DNA from: an uncultured Clostridia bacterium
GTDB taxonomy: Bacteria; Bacillota; Clostridia; Oscillospirales; Acutalibacteraceae
Length of the DNA stretch: 35,273 bases
Direction: 5' to 3'
Assembly: GCA_946637545.1 (NCBI GenBank)
Contig: CAMPBI010000004.1
Coordinates: 1-35,273 of the forward strand
A model generated the notes under the pieces. It ran no database searches, was not told the origin of the DNA, and saw nothing but the letters and a program-made list of their open reading frames with translations. The number at the start of each line of letters is the position of its first letter. Position 1 is the stretch's first letter. The translations under genes and the position numbers were made by a program. Shown here one piece after another: positions 8,812 through 14,248 of this stretch.

Positions 8812-11238
8812 ATGGGACTTATGGACAAGCTAAAAAGTAAAATCAGTGAAACTGTTTCAAGCGTTTCATCGCTGTCGCAGGTTTCGGCGGCAGAGGCTGA
8901 AAGCGCAGGCACAATTACAGACGAAATGAAACGCCTTTGCAGAAAAGCTGCTGCAGAGGGCACTGTGCTAATCAAAAATGACGGCACGCTTCCGCTCAAG
9001 GAAGGCACCGTTGTTTCGCTCTTCTCACGCGTTCAGTACGACTGGTTTTTTGTCGGCTACGGTTCGGGCGGAGATGTGAACTGCCCCGAGAAAGTCAATC
9101 TTGTTGACGGAATCAGAAACTGCGACAAGCTTGAACTCAACGAAAATCTCGCAGAGGTTTACGCAAAATGGATTAAAAATAATCCGGTAAATCAGGGCGT
9201 TTGGGGCACTTGGCCATACTGTCATAAGGAAATGCCTCTTGATGTAATCACCCTTCAATCCACAAAGGGCGCAAGCGACACTGCTGTTGTGTCAATCGGC
9301 AGAGCCGCAGGCGAGGACAGAGACAGCGCATACGAGAACGGCTGCTATCTGCTTAACAATGCTGAAATCGCTATGCTTGATGTTGTTACCTCAAATTTTG
9401 ACAAGGTTATTGTTCTGCTTAACACAGGCGGAATTATTGATATGTCGTGGATGAAAAAATACGGCGACAAAATTTCGGCAGTGCTTTATGTTTTTCAGGG
9501 CGGTATGGAAAGCGGAAACGCAGTTGCCGACGTGCTTTGCGGCAAGGTTAACCCGAGCGGCAGACTTACCGACACGATTGCAAAAAGTTACTTTGACTAT
9601 CCGTCGAGCGACAATTTTGGCGGCAGGAGCGTAAACAATTACGAGGAAGATATTTTTGTTGGCTACCGCTATTTTGAAAGCTTTGACAAAAACAATGTTG
9701 TTTATCCGTTCGGCTATGGCTTGAGCTACACCGATTTTGATATTAAGTACATAGATACTGAAGCGTTTGACGACGGTTTTGAAATAACTGCAAAGGTTAC
9801 AAACATCGGCGAAAGAAGCGGCAGACAGGTTGTTCAGCTTTACGCCGAAAAGCCTTGCGGAAAACTCGGAAATCCGTCACGCGAGCTTGTTGCCTTTGCA
9901 AAAACAAAAGACCTCGCCACACAGGAAAGCGAGGAGGTTAAGCTCTGGGTTGACGCGTATCAGCTGACATCCTTTGACGACTGCGGCTCAACAAATCACG
10001 CAGGCGCTTATGTTGCCGAAGAGGGCGAATACAATTTCTATCTCGGTGAAAATGTACGCGAAGCGCAAAAGGTATTTTCGTATTATCAGGAAGAAACCGA
10101 GGTGTTCGTTCAGCACCGCCAGGCTGCTGCTCCGCAGGAGCATTTTGAGGTGCTGCACGCCGAAATCGTCGACGGCAAAAAAGTGCTTCGCAAAAAGGCT
10201 GTTGCAAAGCAAAAGTACGACCTCGGCTCACGAATCAACAACAATCTGCCCGAGGATATTGAAATAACAGGCGACAAGGGTCTCAAGTTAATTGACGTTA
10301 AAGACGGCAAATGCACGATGGAGGAATTTGTTGCGCAGCTCAGTCTTGACGAGCTTGAGGCGATTACACGCGGCGACTACAGGATGGACAGTCCGCTGGG
10401 CGCAAAGGGTAATGCTGCCGTTTACGGCGGTGTGCTTGAATCACTGCGCGACAAGGGAATTCCGCCTGTTACCACAACCGACGGTCCGTCGGGCATACGC
10501 CTTGCAGCATACTGCTCGCTTATTCCGATAGGCACTCTGCTCGCCTGCACGTTTGACGTTGAACTCACGCAGGAGCTTCACGCTGAACTCGGTGCGGAAA
10601 TGAAGGACAGAGGCTCGGATGTTTTGCTCGGTCCCGGAATGAATATTCACCGCAATCCGCTTTGCGGAAGAAACTTTGAATATTACAGCGAGGACCCGTA
10701 TCTTACAGGTAAAATTGCCGCGGCAGCAGTAAAGGGTATTCAGAGCCAAGGCGTTTCTGCCTGCCCGAAGCACTATGCCTGCAATAATCAGGAAATGCGC
10801 CGAAACAAAAACGACAGCCGCCTTTCCGAAAGAGCGCTGCGTGAGATTTATCTGAAGGGCTACGAAATCTGTATAAAAGAGGCAAAGCCGCTCAATATTA
10901 TGACCTCGTACAACAGAATCAACGGCGTTTACGGTCACTACAACTACGACCTTTGCACAACGATTCTGCGCGGCGAATGGGGTTACGAGGGCAACGTTAT
11001 GACTGACTGGTGGCTGATGAGTGAAAAGAGCCCCGAAAACCCTGCAGTCAAGGACCAGGCGTACCGCGTCAGAGCGCAGGTTGACCTGTTTATGCCCGGC
11101 GGCTCAAGGACAACAAACGGCAAGCCCGACGGCACGCTGCTGTCATCGCTTGGCAAGCCCTTCGGAATTACAGTAGGCGAAATTCAGCGCAGCGCGATGA
11201 ACATACTCCGCAGTGTAATTGAAATTAAATTTAAATAA
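8812..11238 (+). CDS. GH3 beta-glucosidase with reversed domain order
   Basis: This 808-residue intracellular glycoside hydrolase (no signal peptide) has the GH3 domains in swapped order. The alpha/beta sandwich domain comes first (about 40-310: AAAEGTVLIKNDGTLPL, VFQGGMESGNAVADVLCG, FGYGLSYTDF). A fibronectin-like domain follows (about 320-420). The TIM-barrel domain comes last (about 500-800: TTDGPSGIR, LLGPGMNIHRNPLCGRNFEYYSEDP, CPKHYACNNQE, VMTDWW). Asp732 in VMTDWW is the expected nucleophile. The same permutation is known for beta-glucosidases of Ruminococcus albus and Butyrivibrio fibrisolvens. The likely substrates are short beta-glucosides such as cellobiose or gentiobiose. The gene is monocistronic, with a good promoter and AAGGTGAT site, and ends at a terminator shared with the LCP gene. 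Confidence 0.88.
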   Translation: MGLMDKLKSKISETVSSVSSLSQVSAAEAESAGTITDEMKRLCRKAAAEGTVLIKNDGTLPLKEGTVVSLFSRVQYDWFFVGYGSGGDVNCPEKVNLVDGIRNCDKLELNENLAEVYAKWIKNNPVNQGVWGTWPYCHKEMPLDVITLQSTKGASDTAVVSIGRAAGEDRDSAYENGCYLLNNAEIAMLDVVTSNFDKVIVLLNTGGIIDMSWMKKYGDKISAVLYVFQGGMESGNAVADVLCGKVNPSGRLTDTIAKSYFDYPSSDNFGGRSVNNYEEDIFVGYRYFESFDKNNVVYPFGYGLSYTDFDIKYIDTEAFDDGFEITAKVTNIGERSGRQVVQLYAEKPCGKLGNPSRELVAFAKTKDLATQESEEVKLWVDAYQLTSFDDCGSTNHAGAYVAEEGEYNFYLGENVREAQKVFSYYQEETEVFVQHRQAAAPQEHFEVLHAEIVDGKKVLRKKAVAKQKYDLGSRINNNLPEDIEITGDKGLKLIDVKDGKCTMEEFVAQLSLDELEAITRGDYRMDSPLGAKGNAAVYGGVLESLRDKGIPPVTTTDGPSGIRLAAYCSLIPIGTLLACTFDVELTQELHAELGAEMKDRGSDVLLGPGMNIHRNPLCGRNFEYYSEDPYLTGKIAAAAVKGIQSQGVSACPKHYACNNQEMRRNKNDSRLSERALREIYLKGYEICIKEAKPLNIMTSYNRINGVYGHYNYDLCTTILRGEWGYEGNVMTDWWLMSEKSPENPAVKDQAYRVRAQVDLFMPGGSRTTNGKPDGTLLSSLGKPFGITVGEIQRSAMNILRSVIEIKFK

Positions 11239-11296: not shown

Positions 11297-12635
11297 AATC
11301 AATTTGTGTGTAGAACACATCAAGAACGGTCTGCATCAGGAAATCCTCGTCGGGATAAAACTCGGCGTGGACAACGCCTGCATAATCGGGATTAGGGTCA
11401 AGCGAGCCCTTCATTTCGCCCTTGAGTGTGATGCCGTCAAAGTCGCGGATGTTCTTTTGCAGGAGCATTGACGCCATATAGGTGGCGTTTGACAGTGTAA
11501 GATTTGTTTTGGAATAATTCTTTGATGTGTTGTAAAGCTTTGACACCGTTGAAAAGTCACGCACAACTGCAGGCAGAGCCTGTGTGGTGTACGCCCTGAC
11601 ATACTGAACCTGCCTGTCAGTACGGTTGAGCGACGCTTCAACACTGTCGGTATCACGGCGACGTACATATACCTCCGCCATATCTCCCTTGAGCGTTACG
11701 GGGTCACCCACACTGATTCCGTAATCGGGAAAAGGATAAAGCGAATTTGGAATTTCAACTCCGCCGATTGCGTCGTTGAGCGGAGCGATACCGTCGAGGT
11801 CAAGCACAAAGTATTTCTGAATCGGAACATTATTAAGTATTCTGCTTATTGCGTCGACTGTGTTCTGACAGCTGAGCGTGTCGCCGTCGGCATAAGCGTA
11901 CGCCAGACAAAGCTGCGTTTGCTTGCTTCCGAGCAGCAATCCTGTGTCCGCGCTGTACATATCAACATCGACCATTGTGTCACGCGGGATTGCAATAACC
12001 TTTGTTTTGCCCGTTTCAACATCAACGGCAACAACTATATCGGCATCGGCTGCGCCGACAAAGTCGGTGTTGTCCGAGGTTTCAAGCTGGCGCTGGTCAA
12101 CGCCGATGAATGCGAGCGAAACGATGTTTTCGTTATACTTATACTTATGTCCGCCGTACTCGATGATTTCCTCGTACTTTGTGTCCTCGGTAACTGTGGG
12201 CATAATGTCCTTTTTGCCCTGGTAGCGCAAAACAAGAAATGTGCCGAGCACCGTGCCGATTGCAAGAAGCAGAATCAAAAGAATGATTATTGCAACCTTG
12301 AGCGCCGCGGGCAGTTTTTTCTTTTTCTTTTTGCTGCTTGACGACGAATGATGGTGCGAGCCCGAATGTCTGTGGCTTGAAGAGTGGCTGTGATGATGGT
12401 GGTGATGATGGTGGTGCTGTACTTGCTCCGCCTTTTCACGTTCTGCCTCTGCCACAGCGTCCTGATAATTCCGTATGTCCTCTTTCAGTTCGGTGTATTC
12501 GTCCGCCTTTGGCTCTGCTTGCGGCAGCTCAATTTCAGTTTCTTTAATTTCAAAATCTGCGCCGCTATTGCCTATGCTATTTAAAATGTCGTCATTGCCC
12601 ATTCCCGAAAGATTGGGGTCAATTCGTCTGTTCAT
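11295..12635 (-). CDS. LytR-CpsA-Psr (LCP) family cell-wall ligase with poly-His N-terminus
   Basis: LCP proteins transfer undecaprenyl-linked polymers such as teichoic acids or capsules to peptidoglycan outside the membrane. The layout is a cytoplasmic N-terminus (1-110), one membrane helix (about 113-136) and an extracellular LCP domain (about 165-340). Its core motifs are ADADIVVAVDVETGKTKVIAIPRDT, FVLDLDGIAPLNDAIGGVEI and VYVRRRDTD followed by an arginine-rich NRTDRQ segment. The region after about 345 is a helical or mixed extension. The N-terminus is unusual: nine consecutive His (74-82), then a His/Ser-rich stretch and six Lys (102-107) next to the membrane. The start overlaps the end of the sortase gene by 17 bases, implying coupled translation and a joint role in wall decoration. 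Confidence 0.85.
   Translation of the reverse strand: MNRRIDPNLSGMGNDDILNSIGNSGADFEIKETEIELPQAEPKADEYTELKEDIRNYQDAVAEAEREKAEQVQHHHHHHHHHSHSSSHRHSGSHHHSSSSSKKKKKKLPAALKVAIIILLILLLAIGTVLGTFLVLRYQGKKDIMPTVTEDTKYEEIIEYGGHKYKYNENIVSLAFIGVDQRQLETSDNTDFVGAADADIVVAVDVETGKTKVIAIPRDTMVDVDMYSADTGLLLGSKQTQLCLAYAYADGDTLSCQNTVDAISRILNNVPIQKYFVLDLDGIAPLNDAIGGVEIPNSLYPFPDYGISVGDPVTLKGDMAEVYVRRRDTDSVEASLNRTDRQVQYVRAYTTQALPAVVRDFSTVSKLYNTSKNYSKTNLTLSNATYMASMLLQKNIRDFDGITLKGEMKGSLDPNPDYAGVVHAEFYPDEDFLMQTVLDVFYTQID
12315..12416 (-). repeat. His/Ser/Lys low-complexity coding tract in the LCP gene
   Basis: The minus-strand coding sequence carries nine His codons in a row, then alternating His and Ser, five Ser and six Lys. 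Both His codons (CAC and CAT) are mixed through the tract, which argues for selection on the protein rather than simple slippage of one triplet. Confidence 0.9.
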
Positions 12636-13422
12636 CCTTAATTAACACTCCGCATACTAAATATCTGTTGCTTCTCTGATTTGTGAAGCAGGTTGACAGC
12701 ACAACAATATTATCGTTTGTTGTGAGCTGTCTGCCAAGTGGGGTCCTAACATTTTTATTATTCGTTTCAGGCGACTGAATCATCTCAAGAAATTCGGCAT
12801 AAACCTGCGTGTCGTTAAAATCAAAGCAGTTGAGAAGATGCCTGTCGTCAAACTTGAACGCCGACACAATCTGATAAGTCAGCTTGCGGTGCGGCATATA
12901 AATATAAAATTTGTCGTGCTTTTTGAAAAAATCGGACGATTCAAAATTGTGCAGCGTGGTGAACATTGTGTCGCCGTAGCCGTTATGCCCGTAAAGCACT
13001 GTAACGCGGTCAGAAAAGGTGGCAGTGTTTCCAAGTTCCGTATATACCGCGCCGCTTGCGCTCCAGTTTTTTGTATACGCATCATGCTTCAGGTAAAAAT
13101 AATCGTCGCTTTCGTGCTGCAAAACGGGATAGTCAACCTTTGTGCCGGGAACTTTCAGCCAGGCAAAAATATCATTGTTCTTTGCTTTAAGCGATTTGAA
13201 GTCAATCGGATTATTCGCCAGCTTTTCATCAACTACCTGTGTTGTTGCTGCAATGCTCGACGCAACCTCGTCACTTTGTTGCGCGCTGTACTGTCCGTAA
13301 AGATAGTAGCCAAGGTATACTGACCCTGCAATTACGAGCAGAATAATCAAAATAAGGATAATTATTCTACCCTTTTTTCTGCCGTCCTCTTCTTCATTTG
13401 CTCTTTTAATTTCGTCACTCAT
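12619..13422 (-). CDS. srtB: Class B sortase
   Basis: This 267-residue membrane-anchored transpeptidase has a charged N-terminus, one signal-anchor helix (about 18-40) and a sortase fold. The catalytic triad is visible: His146 in LYGHNGYG, Cys245 in VVLSTCF and Arg253 in SNRYLVCGV. The WLKVPGTKVDYPVLQ segment and the long spacing between His and Cys fit class B. The enzyme would cut a sorting signal in surface proteins and join them to peptidoglycan. The neighbouring small gene encodes an SPKTG protein; the class B sortase of Clostridioides difficile recognises such (S/N)PxTG signals, so this pair is probably enzyme and substrate. A GAGAGG site precedes the ATG, and the LCP gene overlaps the 3' end. 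Confidence 0.88.
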   Translation of the reverse strand: MSDEIKRANEEEDGRKKGRIIILILIILLVIAGSVYLGYYLYGQYSAQQSDEVASSIAATTQVVDEKLANNPIDFKSLKAKNNDIFAWLKVPGTKVDYPVLQHESDDYFYLKHDAYTKNWSASGAVYTELGNTATFSDRVTVLYGHNGYGDTMFTTLHNFESSDFFKKHDKFYIYMPHRKLTYQIVSAFKFDDRHLLNCFDFNDTQVYAEFLEMIQSPETNNKNVRTPLGRQLTTNDNIVVLSTCFTNQRSNRYLVCGVLIKDEQTN

Positions 13423-13445: not shown

Positions 13446-13697
13446 AAAAAAGCCCGTACTTATCCCCACTTGTTATAAGGAGGTTACGCCTCAATAATCA
13501 ACTCTTTTGCACTATTAGTTCGTTAAAATTAGCGGCAAGGCGCCAAGCCTTGCCGCTAATTTATGCCTGATACTTGCACAAAATACTTGATTTTTAGGTG
13601 TCAAAGCAGTTTAAGTTGTTTGCTTTTATTCAGATTGGTGAAATCGGGCAACTTAAACCGTGACCTCCTTGTGATAAGTGTGGCAAACGTGCTTTTT
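13446..13697 (+). ncRNA. Candidate structured RNA or MITE-like element between sortase and SPKTG genes
   Basis: The spacer of about 286 bases carries no convincing ORF but is dense in inverted repeats. An outer helix pairs 13446-13457 with 13688-13697 (AAAAAGC-CGT type, one mismatch). A 22-bp helix pairs 13467-13488 with 13659-13680. A 16-bp perfect hairpin with loop GCCAA spans 13526-13562. A helix of 10 or more bp pairs GTTTAAGTTG (13609-13618) with CAACTTAAAC (13649-13658). All four imperfections in the 22-bp helix, and the three before the closing G-C extension of the last helix, are G-U pairs if the plus strand is transcribed. On the minus strand they would be A-C mismatches. This favours a plus-strand multibranched RNA. 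A miniature transposon with long terminal repeats is the main alternative. Confidence 0.45.
13526..13562. repeat. Perfect 16-bp hairpin
   Basis: The arm AAATTAGCGGCAAGGC and its exact reverse complement are separated by the 5-base loop GCCAA. No T-run follows on either strand, so it is a weak terminator candidate. It forms one branch of the larger structure described for this spacer. Confidence 0.9.
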
Positions 13698-13708
13698 ATT
13701 GCGCTAAA

Positions 13709-14197
13709 TTAGTCTTCGCTCTTTTTTCTGAGAGCTGCAAGCACTGCCACGCCTGCACCTGCAACTGCAACAGCCGTTGCTGTAGCTGCGCCGGTCTTTG
13801 GTGACTTACGGTCATCGTTGGACTTTTTCTTCTTTGTTGTCGTTTCCTTAACAATAGCATTTGCGGTAACATCACCGTCGTAATCGTTGATAAGCTGAAT
13901 TGTTATGGAATTGTCGTCCTCTGAAATGATGATGTAATCTTCGCCTTCGGTCATTCCGGGGAACTCCCAGCCCTCAAGCTCACCGTCGCCTGTGTAGGTG
14001 AAGGTAATCTTTGTCGGGTCCTGAGGATCCTTTTCGTAGATAACCTCAGTGGTTTCGTTACCGTTAACCTCAACGTTGATTTTATTTGACTTGGTTGTGC
14101 TTTCAGGGCTTAATACAGCAGCAGATGCCGAAACAGCAACTGCAGAAACTGAAATAAGCATAACAAGCGAAAGAATGATTGAAATAACTTTTTTCAT
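13709..14197 (-). CDS. Small secreted protein with SPKTG sorting signal
   Basis: The protein of about 162 residues has an N-terminal signal peptide (KKVISIILSLVMLISVSAVAVSASAA) and a short acidic beta-rich middle region (about 40-115) with no domain I recognise. A charged linker (KETTTKKKKSNDDRK) leads to a C-terminal wall-sorting signal: SPKTG (about 132-136), a hydrophobic helix and the positive tail RKK. It is the probable substrate of the class B sortase encoded next to it. The track starts at GTG (14206). The ATG at 14197 lies 8 bases after GAGG and begins with the usual MKK of a signal peptide, so it is preferred. A strong promoter precedes it. The function of the mature domain is unknown. 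Confidence 0.82.
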   Translation of the reverse strand: MKKVISIILSLVMLISVSAVAVSASAAVLSPESTTKSNKINVEVNGNETTEVIYEKDPQDPTKITFTYTGDGELEGWEFPGMTEGEDYIIISEDDNSITIQLINDYDGDVTANAIVKETTTKKKKSNDDRKSPKTGAATATAVAVAGAGVAVLAALRKKSED

Positions 14198-14248
14198 TTT
14201 AAACACCTCTAATGTAATACAGACATTTATATCATTATAATCAAATAG

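Follow-up and report, generated by a model that had tools for sequence, protein, structure and literature searches.

A decayed copy of a probably mobile, cargo-free folding element within a terminator hairpin of an uncultured Clostridia bacterium

We analyzed a 35,273-nucleotide stretch of DNA (the window) from an uncultured Clostridia bacterium, in which a gene-free spacer lies between a sortase gene and a small gene on the same strand (Table 1). The small secreted product of the latter gene (13709-14206) has a signal peptide, an SPKTG motif, a membrane segment, and a basic tail, and a Pfam search placed it in no family; judged from its sequence, it is probably a sortase substrate. The gene adjoins the sortase gene (12619-13422) and the gene of a LytR-CpsA-Psr protein, and substrate and sortase probably form a dedicated pair. 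Elsewhere in the window, a glycoside hydrolase family 3 protein (8812-11238) has a permuted domain order, its C-terminal domain match (residues 51-306) preceding its N-terminal domain match (548-767). The spacer holds the intrinsic terminator of gene 13709-14206. On the two sides of this terminator, AAAAAGC pairs with GCTTTTT at 13691-13697 and, beyond a single mismatch, CGT pairs with ACG at 13687-13689. Between the two half-stems lies a 222-bp element (13463-13684), antisense to that gene, which is a tip-deleted copy missing ~55 nt of its second arm.

Table 1. Parts of the element copy in the window, its host terminator, and the neighboring genes
Feature	Position	Strand	Evidence
Left half of host terminator hairpin (A-tract and GCCCGT), outside the element	13446-13462		Pairing with right half
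Left 26-bp terminal inverted repeat (P1, 5′ side)	13463-13488		Ungapped pairing with 13659-13684; boundary from 67 aligned copies
Arm 1 (P2), long hairpin arm, most conserved part	13489-13608		R1 match, covariation
Arm 1 tip: perfect 16-bp hairpin, loop GCCAA (13526-13541 with 13547-13562)	13526-13562		Sequence, covariation
Arm 2 (P3), shortened in this copy	13609-13658		Alignment gap: ~55 nt of distal arm missing relative to most copies
Right 26-bp terminal inverted repeat (P1, 3′ side)	13659-13684		Pairs with 13463-13488
Right half of host terminator hairpin (ACGTGC and T-tract)	13685-13699		Sequence
Gene served by the terminator at its 3′ end, outside the element	13709-14206	-	ORF, translation; no Pfam family
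Sortase gene, downstream on the same strand, outside the element	12619-13422	-	PF04203, E = 2.9e-12

The original prediction, made from the sequence of the spacer, was of an undescribed structured RNA on the plus strand. Both strands of 13446-13697 were folded. The plus strand reached a minimum free energy of -102.7 kcal/mol, compared to a shuffle mean of -55.6 (z = -10.8; none of 200 shuffles folded as well); the minus strand reached -83.9 kcal/mol (z = -6.5), a signal that is clear but smaller. The predicted outer helix, long imperfect helix, 16-bp perfect hairpin, and last helix were all recovered. The outer helix is present but is not a single helix: it consists of the terminator half-stem pair (13447-13457 with 13687-13697) and the 26-bp inverted repeat of the element, whose position within a terminator hairpin had been missed. 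The sequence is, as far as tested, undescribed, with no Rfam match at the gathering score and nothing credible below it; at loose thresholds, the sub-threshold matches were to unrelated microRNA or sRNA models. A AAGGAGGT-like sequence pointed out in the long helix is unconserved. Related copies read AAGGATGT, AAAGAATGT, AACGAAGGT, or AAATAGTGT there, and this variation led us to reject AAGGAGGT as a ribosome binding site.

Alignment of 67 complete copies defined a full unit of about 278 to 280 bp, in which a 26-bp terminal inverted repeat, ungapped across the 67 copies, encloses two back-to-back hairpin arms. Among 16 diverse members, 94.5% of the cells of arm 1 are paired, and changes occur on both sides in 20 of its 34 pairs (9 of 16 covary in the tip stem, the 16-bp hairpin). 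The covariation score for arm 1 was 0.429, versus 0.122 in shuffles (0 of 500 came close), and it collapsed when partners were slid by one column. These data bear out the claim that the structure is under selection. Absence of covariation had been put forward as a mark of a MITE; covariation is strong here, so it cannot separate a MITE from an RNA.

In many families, both arms match R1, a covariance model built on the conserved arm 1, on opposite strands and with starts ~104 nt apart (L216, L217, L179, L180, L221, L200-L203, and L225). The two arms of L216 score 68.5 and 65.6 bits, and its arm 2, reverse-complemented, can be aligned along 83 nt with arm 1 of the L206 family. By these matches, arm 2 is an inverted homologue of arm 1 in many families, giving the two inverted, homologous REP-like units of a REPIN, so that either DNA strand can fold into the same three-way junction. 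Within the genus of the window, simple alignment of arm 1 to the inverted arm 2 of the same element was not significant. Arm 2 has drifted in this genus, and the homology emerges only from the covariance model and from comparison between families.

A DNA search found related sequences, several copies each, in many genomes of the same genus. R1, which matches arm 1 of the window copy at 13489-13612 (127 bits, E = 4.8e-28), had matches in 65 of 80 genus genomes, with at least 38 in one of them. The genome of the window itself has 12 at E ≤ 1, most of them weak, partial, or on the opposite strand of the same place. At the order level, matches occurred in 28 of 295 genomes (16 of 148 genera) and at the class level in 31 of 391 genomes (19 of 223 sampled genera); the named carriers are rumen and gut Clostridia metagenome-assembled genomes labeled Eubacterium sp., Ruminococcaceae bacterium, or Oscillospiraceae bacterium. 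The element has been amplified recently in several genomes. Ten near-identical copies occupy unrelated sites in the nearly closed G315 (3 contigs), and G036 carries 36 inverted-repeat ends, mostly at contig ends: fresh, near-identical copies break the assemblies. The original prediction had held that many near-identical copies per genome, flanked by short direct repeats, would make the sequence a MITE, and this is largely what was found, the direct repeats being of 2 bp. As in a MITE, the copies are short (~280 bp), intergenic, and noncoding, with no ORF. No carriage of the element by phages, plasmids, or viral contigs was found.

The inverted repeats are directly bordered by the two half-stems of an intrinsic terminator, with an A-tract on the left and a T-tract on the right, as in AAAAACGGGC-AA-[element]-AA-CGCCCGTTTTTT and AAACGCTCCC-AA-[element]-AA-GGGGAGCGTTTTTT. 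When the flanks are joined, a terminator-like hairpin spans the junction in 52 of the 67 complete copies; when left flanks were matched with right flanks from other copies, 200 trials averaged 11 such hairpins and never exceeded 20. Half-stem sequences vary among near-identical elements, and the stems are therefore not carried by the element. Orthologous loci in four related genomes (G101, G002, G048, and G026) are plain terminators that align straight across; the one in G101 reads GACTGC-TTTT-GCAGTC. This architecture recurs in most of the distant members that were inspected, and terminator loops also house deletion derivatives and mini forms of 31, about 127, about 160, and 203 to 222 nt. 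A 2-bp direct repeat flanks 46 of the 67 copies (mean of 34 and maximum of 42 in 5000 re-pairings) but is nearly always AA/TT and hence weakly informative; the AA/TT dinucleotide is probably duplicated on insertion. Survival of harmless insertions alone would scatter copies anywhere 3′ of genes rather than between half-stems, and we infer for this reason that the element prefers terminator-hairpin loops as targets. At one locus in G315 (L213, C2:1220404-1220683), the element lies in the T-tract right after an intact terminator hairpin and not in the loop. The same genome has identical 31-nt sequences in the loops of two different terminators (L257, C2:944612; L258, C3:46858). They match one end of the element as far as an internal GCCCT, which suggests that a single end can move or that the mini form itself transposed.

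The sequence in the window is very probably a decayed copy of a mobile, cargo-free DNA element that inserts into the hairpin loops of intrinsic terminators and is moved by an enzyme encoded elsewhere, and it is best read as a MITE- or REPIN-like element with an unusual specificity for such loops. The element carries no gene, so the enzyme would have to be encoded elsewhere. This enzyme would recognize the folded ends of the element and join them into the loop of a terminator hairpin, folded as a single strand or a cruciform, at AA/TT with a 2-bp duplication, leaving both half-stems and the T-tract in place. The inserted element would then fold up, and because this brings the half-stems together, the terminator can probably still form. 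A wider proposal, which we make tentatively, is that a broad Clostridia family targets the folded terminator hairpin by its structure and not by its sequence, with the two-armed, strand-symmetric fold of the element as the substrate of an enzyme acting in trans and the terminator as a harmless landing site that is kept working. Several observations stand against a mobile element of this kind. No mobilizer was found: G315 holds no cargo-bearing version, and neither Y1_Tnp nor DDE_Tnp_1_6 follows copy number. The 2-bp repeat, being mostly AA/TT, says little. Terminal sequences differ between families, and a sequence-specific transposase would have to coevolve with them; and a purely strand-neutral DNA element does not predict the excess of G·T pairs found in arm 2 of the GCCC-type subfamilies, to which the window copy belongs.

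That excess bears on the rival idea of a structured regulatory RNA from the plus strand, spread by copying and kept for its RNA function, which we consider very unlikely. The strong covariation would suit it, and in the GCCC-type subfamilies the plus strand is 18 to 26 kcal/mol more stable on average; over 8 consensus column pairs of arm 2 in these subfamilies (e.g., L015, L049, and L017), the plus strand has 51 G·T and 0 A·C. The claim that mismatched positions are G-U and not A-C holds approximately for the window copy, whose consensus pairs include 6 G·T and 1 A·C. It fails for the family, in which helices defined strand-neutrally by Watson-Crick pairs only contain 196 G·T and 187 A·C cells. 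With both strands folded in the 67 copies, the plus strand is the better in 30 and the minus strand in 37; of the 23 copies of the largest subfamily (GGGGC), 19 fold better as the minus strand. The strand-symmetric helices and this two-strand folding led us to reject the plus-strand G-U bias as proof of an RNA at the family level. The retention of G·U and avoidance of A·C on a consistent strand that a structured RNA would show is confined to GCCC-subfamily arm 2; it is a bias of one arm of one subfamily, shared by descent. It could have arisen by strand-asymmetric C-to-T mutation, which would yield the same G·T excess, or by selection on the plus strand as RNA or as single-stranded DNA. The inverted homologous arms, by which both strands fold alike, also argue against a plus-strand RNA, as does the inconsistent orientation to flanking genes: a gene reads towards the element from the left in 41 copies and from the right in 36, with no clear preference, and only 1 of the 67 copies lies between divergent genes. 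For the window copy, the upstream gene would transcribe the opposite strand, and the idea of an RNA read from the plus strand, antisense to its neighboring genes, is left unsupported. The fold is real, but the data mostly do not support reading the sequence as a stand-alone RNA gene. The nearly constant terminator context could instead mean that the element is part of a composite terminator that evolved in place. This is the least probable account: near-identical elements occur in different stems at unrelated genes, and the empty sites, where orthologous loci are plain terminators, refute it.

If the sequence is mobile DNA that enters terminator loops, two kinds of mobilizer come into question. 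As a classical MITE, it would be the miniature of an ordinary insertion sequence, with a transposase-bearing parent that has the same ends. Terminal inverted repeats, short direct repeats, lack of an ORF, and high copy number fit this, but we regard it as somewhat unlikely. In G315, despite its many near-identical copies, every full inverted-repeat pair is of the ~280-bp form, with no cargo-bearing pair of inverted repeats or arms at 0.5 to 6 kb; an autonomous insertion sequence sharing the ends is absent from this nearly closed genome, although fragmented genomes could hide one. The solo inverted-repeat ends in G315 were rejected as ends of an autonomous transposon, being 31-nt remnants or mini-copies. 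Recurrent neighboring genes were likewise rejected as mobilizers and are ordinary conserved host genes. DDE_Tnp_1_6, the IS1182-type transposase that would go with IS1272-type transposition, was rejected too: it is missing from most copy-rich genomes, including G315, and does not track copy number. Still less likely is mobilization in the manner of a REPIN, by a REP-associated tyrosine transposase (RAYT/Y1) that works on single-stranded hairpins. The cargo-free pair of inverted homologous hairpin units does resemble a REPIN (PMC3116915). RAYT-sized Y1 genes are present in four copy-rich genomes (G002, G036, G038, and G049) and in none of 12 tested genus genomes without copies. These RAYT genes are, however, flanked by different palindromes of their own and not by the element, and Y1_Tnp was rejected as the mobilizer: its presence does not track copy number, and the copy-rich G315, G012, G099, and G057 have no Y1 match. 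IS200/605-type transposition by tyrosine (HUH) enzymes would not be expected to produce a 2-bp target duplication, which also counts against this mode. The RAYT-like Y1 transposase genes in the four genomes (L274-L283; about 250 amino acids) are nearly all flanked by REP-like palindromes, mostly of the GGGGTCAGACCCC type, and apparently represent a separate REP/RAYT system in these Clostridia. A palindrome of this kind also lies just to the right of the element at L043.

Targeting of terminator loops, if true, would provide a clear bacterial example of insertion that is guided by structure and does almost no harm, and it would offer a handle on how mobile DNA recognizes a chromosomal hairpin. 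The element accounts for intergenic sequences that fold strongly and covary, a class that RNA discovery screens would easily mistake for riboregulators. Many terminators of gut and rumen Clostridia are marked with inserted DNA, and termination may change as a result. The missing mobilizer is a defined and findable target.

Our literature search, which covered few subscription papers, turned up no cargo-free element described as specific for terminator loops. The bcr1 repeat of Bacillus cereus, which is possibly transcribed, is likewise dispersed, structured, and mobile-looking but is shorter than the element; we know of no report that it enters terminator loops. Bacterial MITEs (PMC10969869), including the BOX, RUP, and SPRITE repeats of pneumococcus (PMC3049150), share with the element terminal inverted repeats, a strong fold, short direct repeats, an intergenic location, and the lack of genes. 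The element fits the description of a MITE except for its missing parent (PMC10969869), no parent insertion sequence having been found. Unlike bacterial MITEs, it has an internal two-armed inverted architecture. SPRITE, which is enriched at gene 3′ ends, is itself terminator-like (PMC3049150), whereas the element enters the loop of an existing terminator. IS1272 also recognizes its target as an inverted repeat or stem-loop rather than by sequence, but it replaces the target stem-loop, leaves no duplication, and carries its transposase (PMC5678879), while the element carries no gene and does not remove the stem-loop, keeping a half-stem on both sides. Insertion within palindromes is shared with IS1397, ISPsy8, and other insertion sequences that target REP palindromes, and ISPsy8 enters a predicted hairpin at its symmetry axis, duplicating 3 bp (PMC1525189). 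These are full insertion sequences whose targets are one repeat family, whereas the targets here are terminators at large. As a working likeness, the element is most like a REPIN. REPINs are REP doublets mobilized by RAYTs and, like the element, are cargo-free pairs of inverted homologous palindromic units with many intergenic copies and a parent transposase that is not between their ends (PMC3116915). The element differs from them in having no linked RAYT (and none detected in the copy-rich, nearly closed G315), in its length of about 280 bp compared to a short doublet, in its 26-bp closing inverted repeat and probable 2-bp direct repeat, and in its location inside terminator loops.
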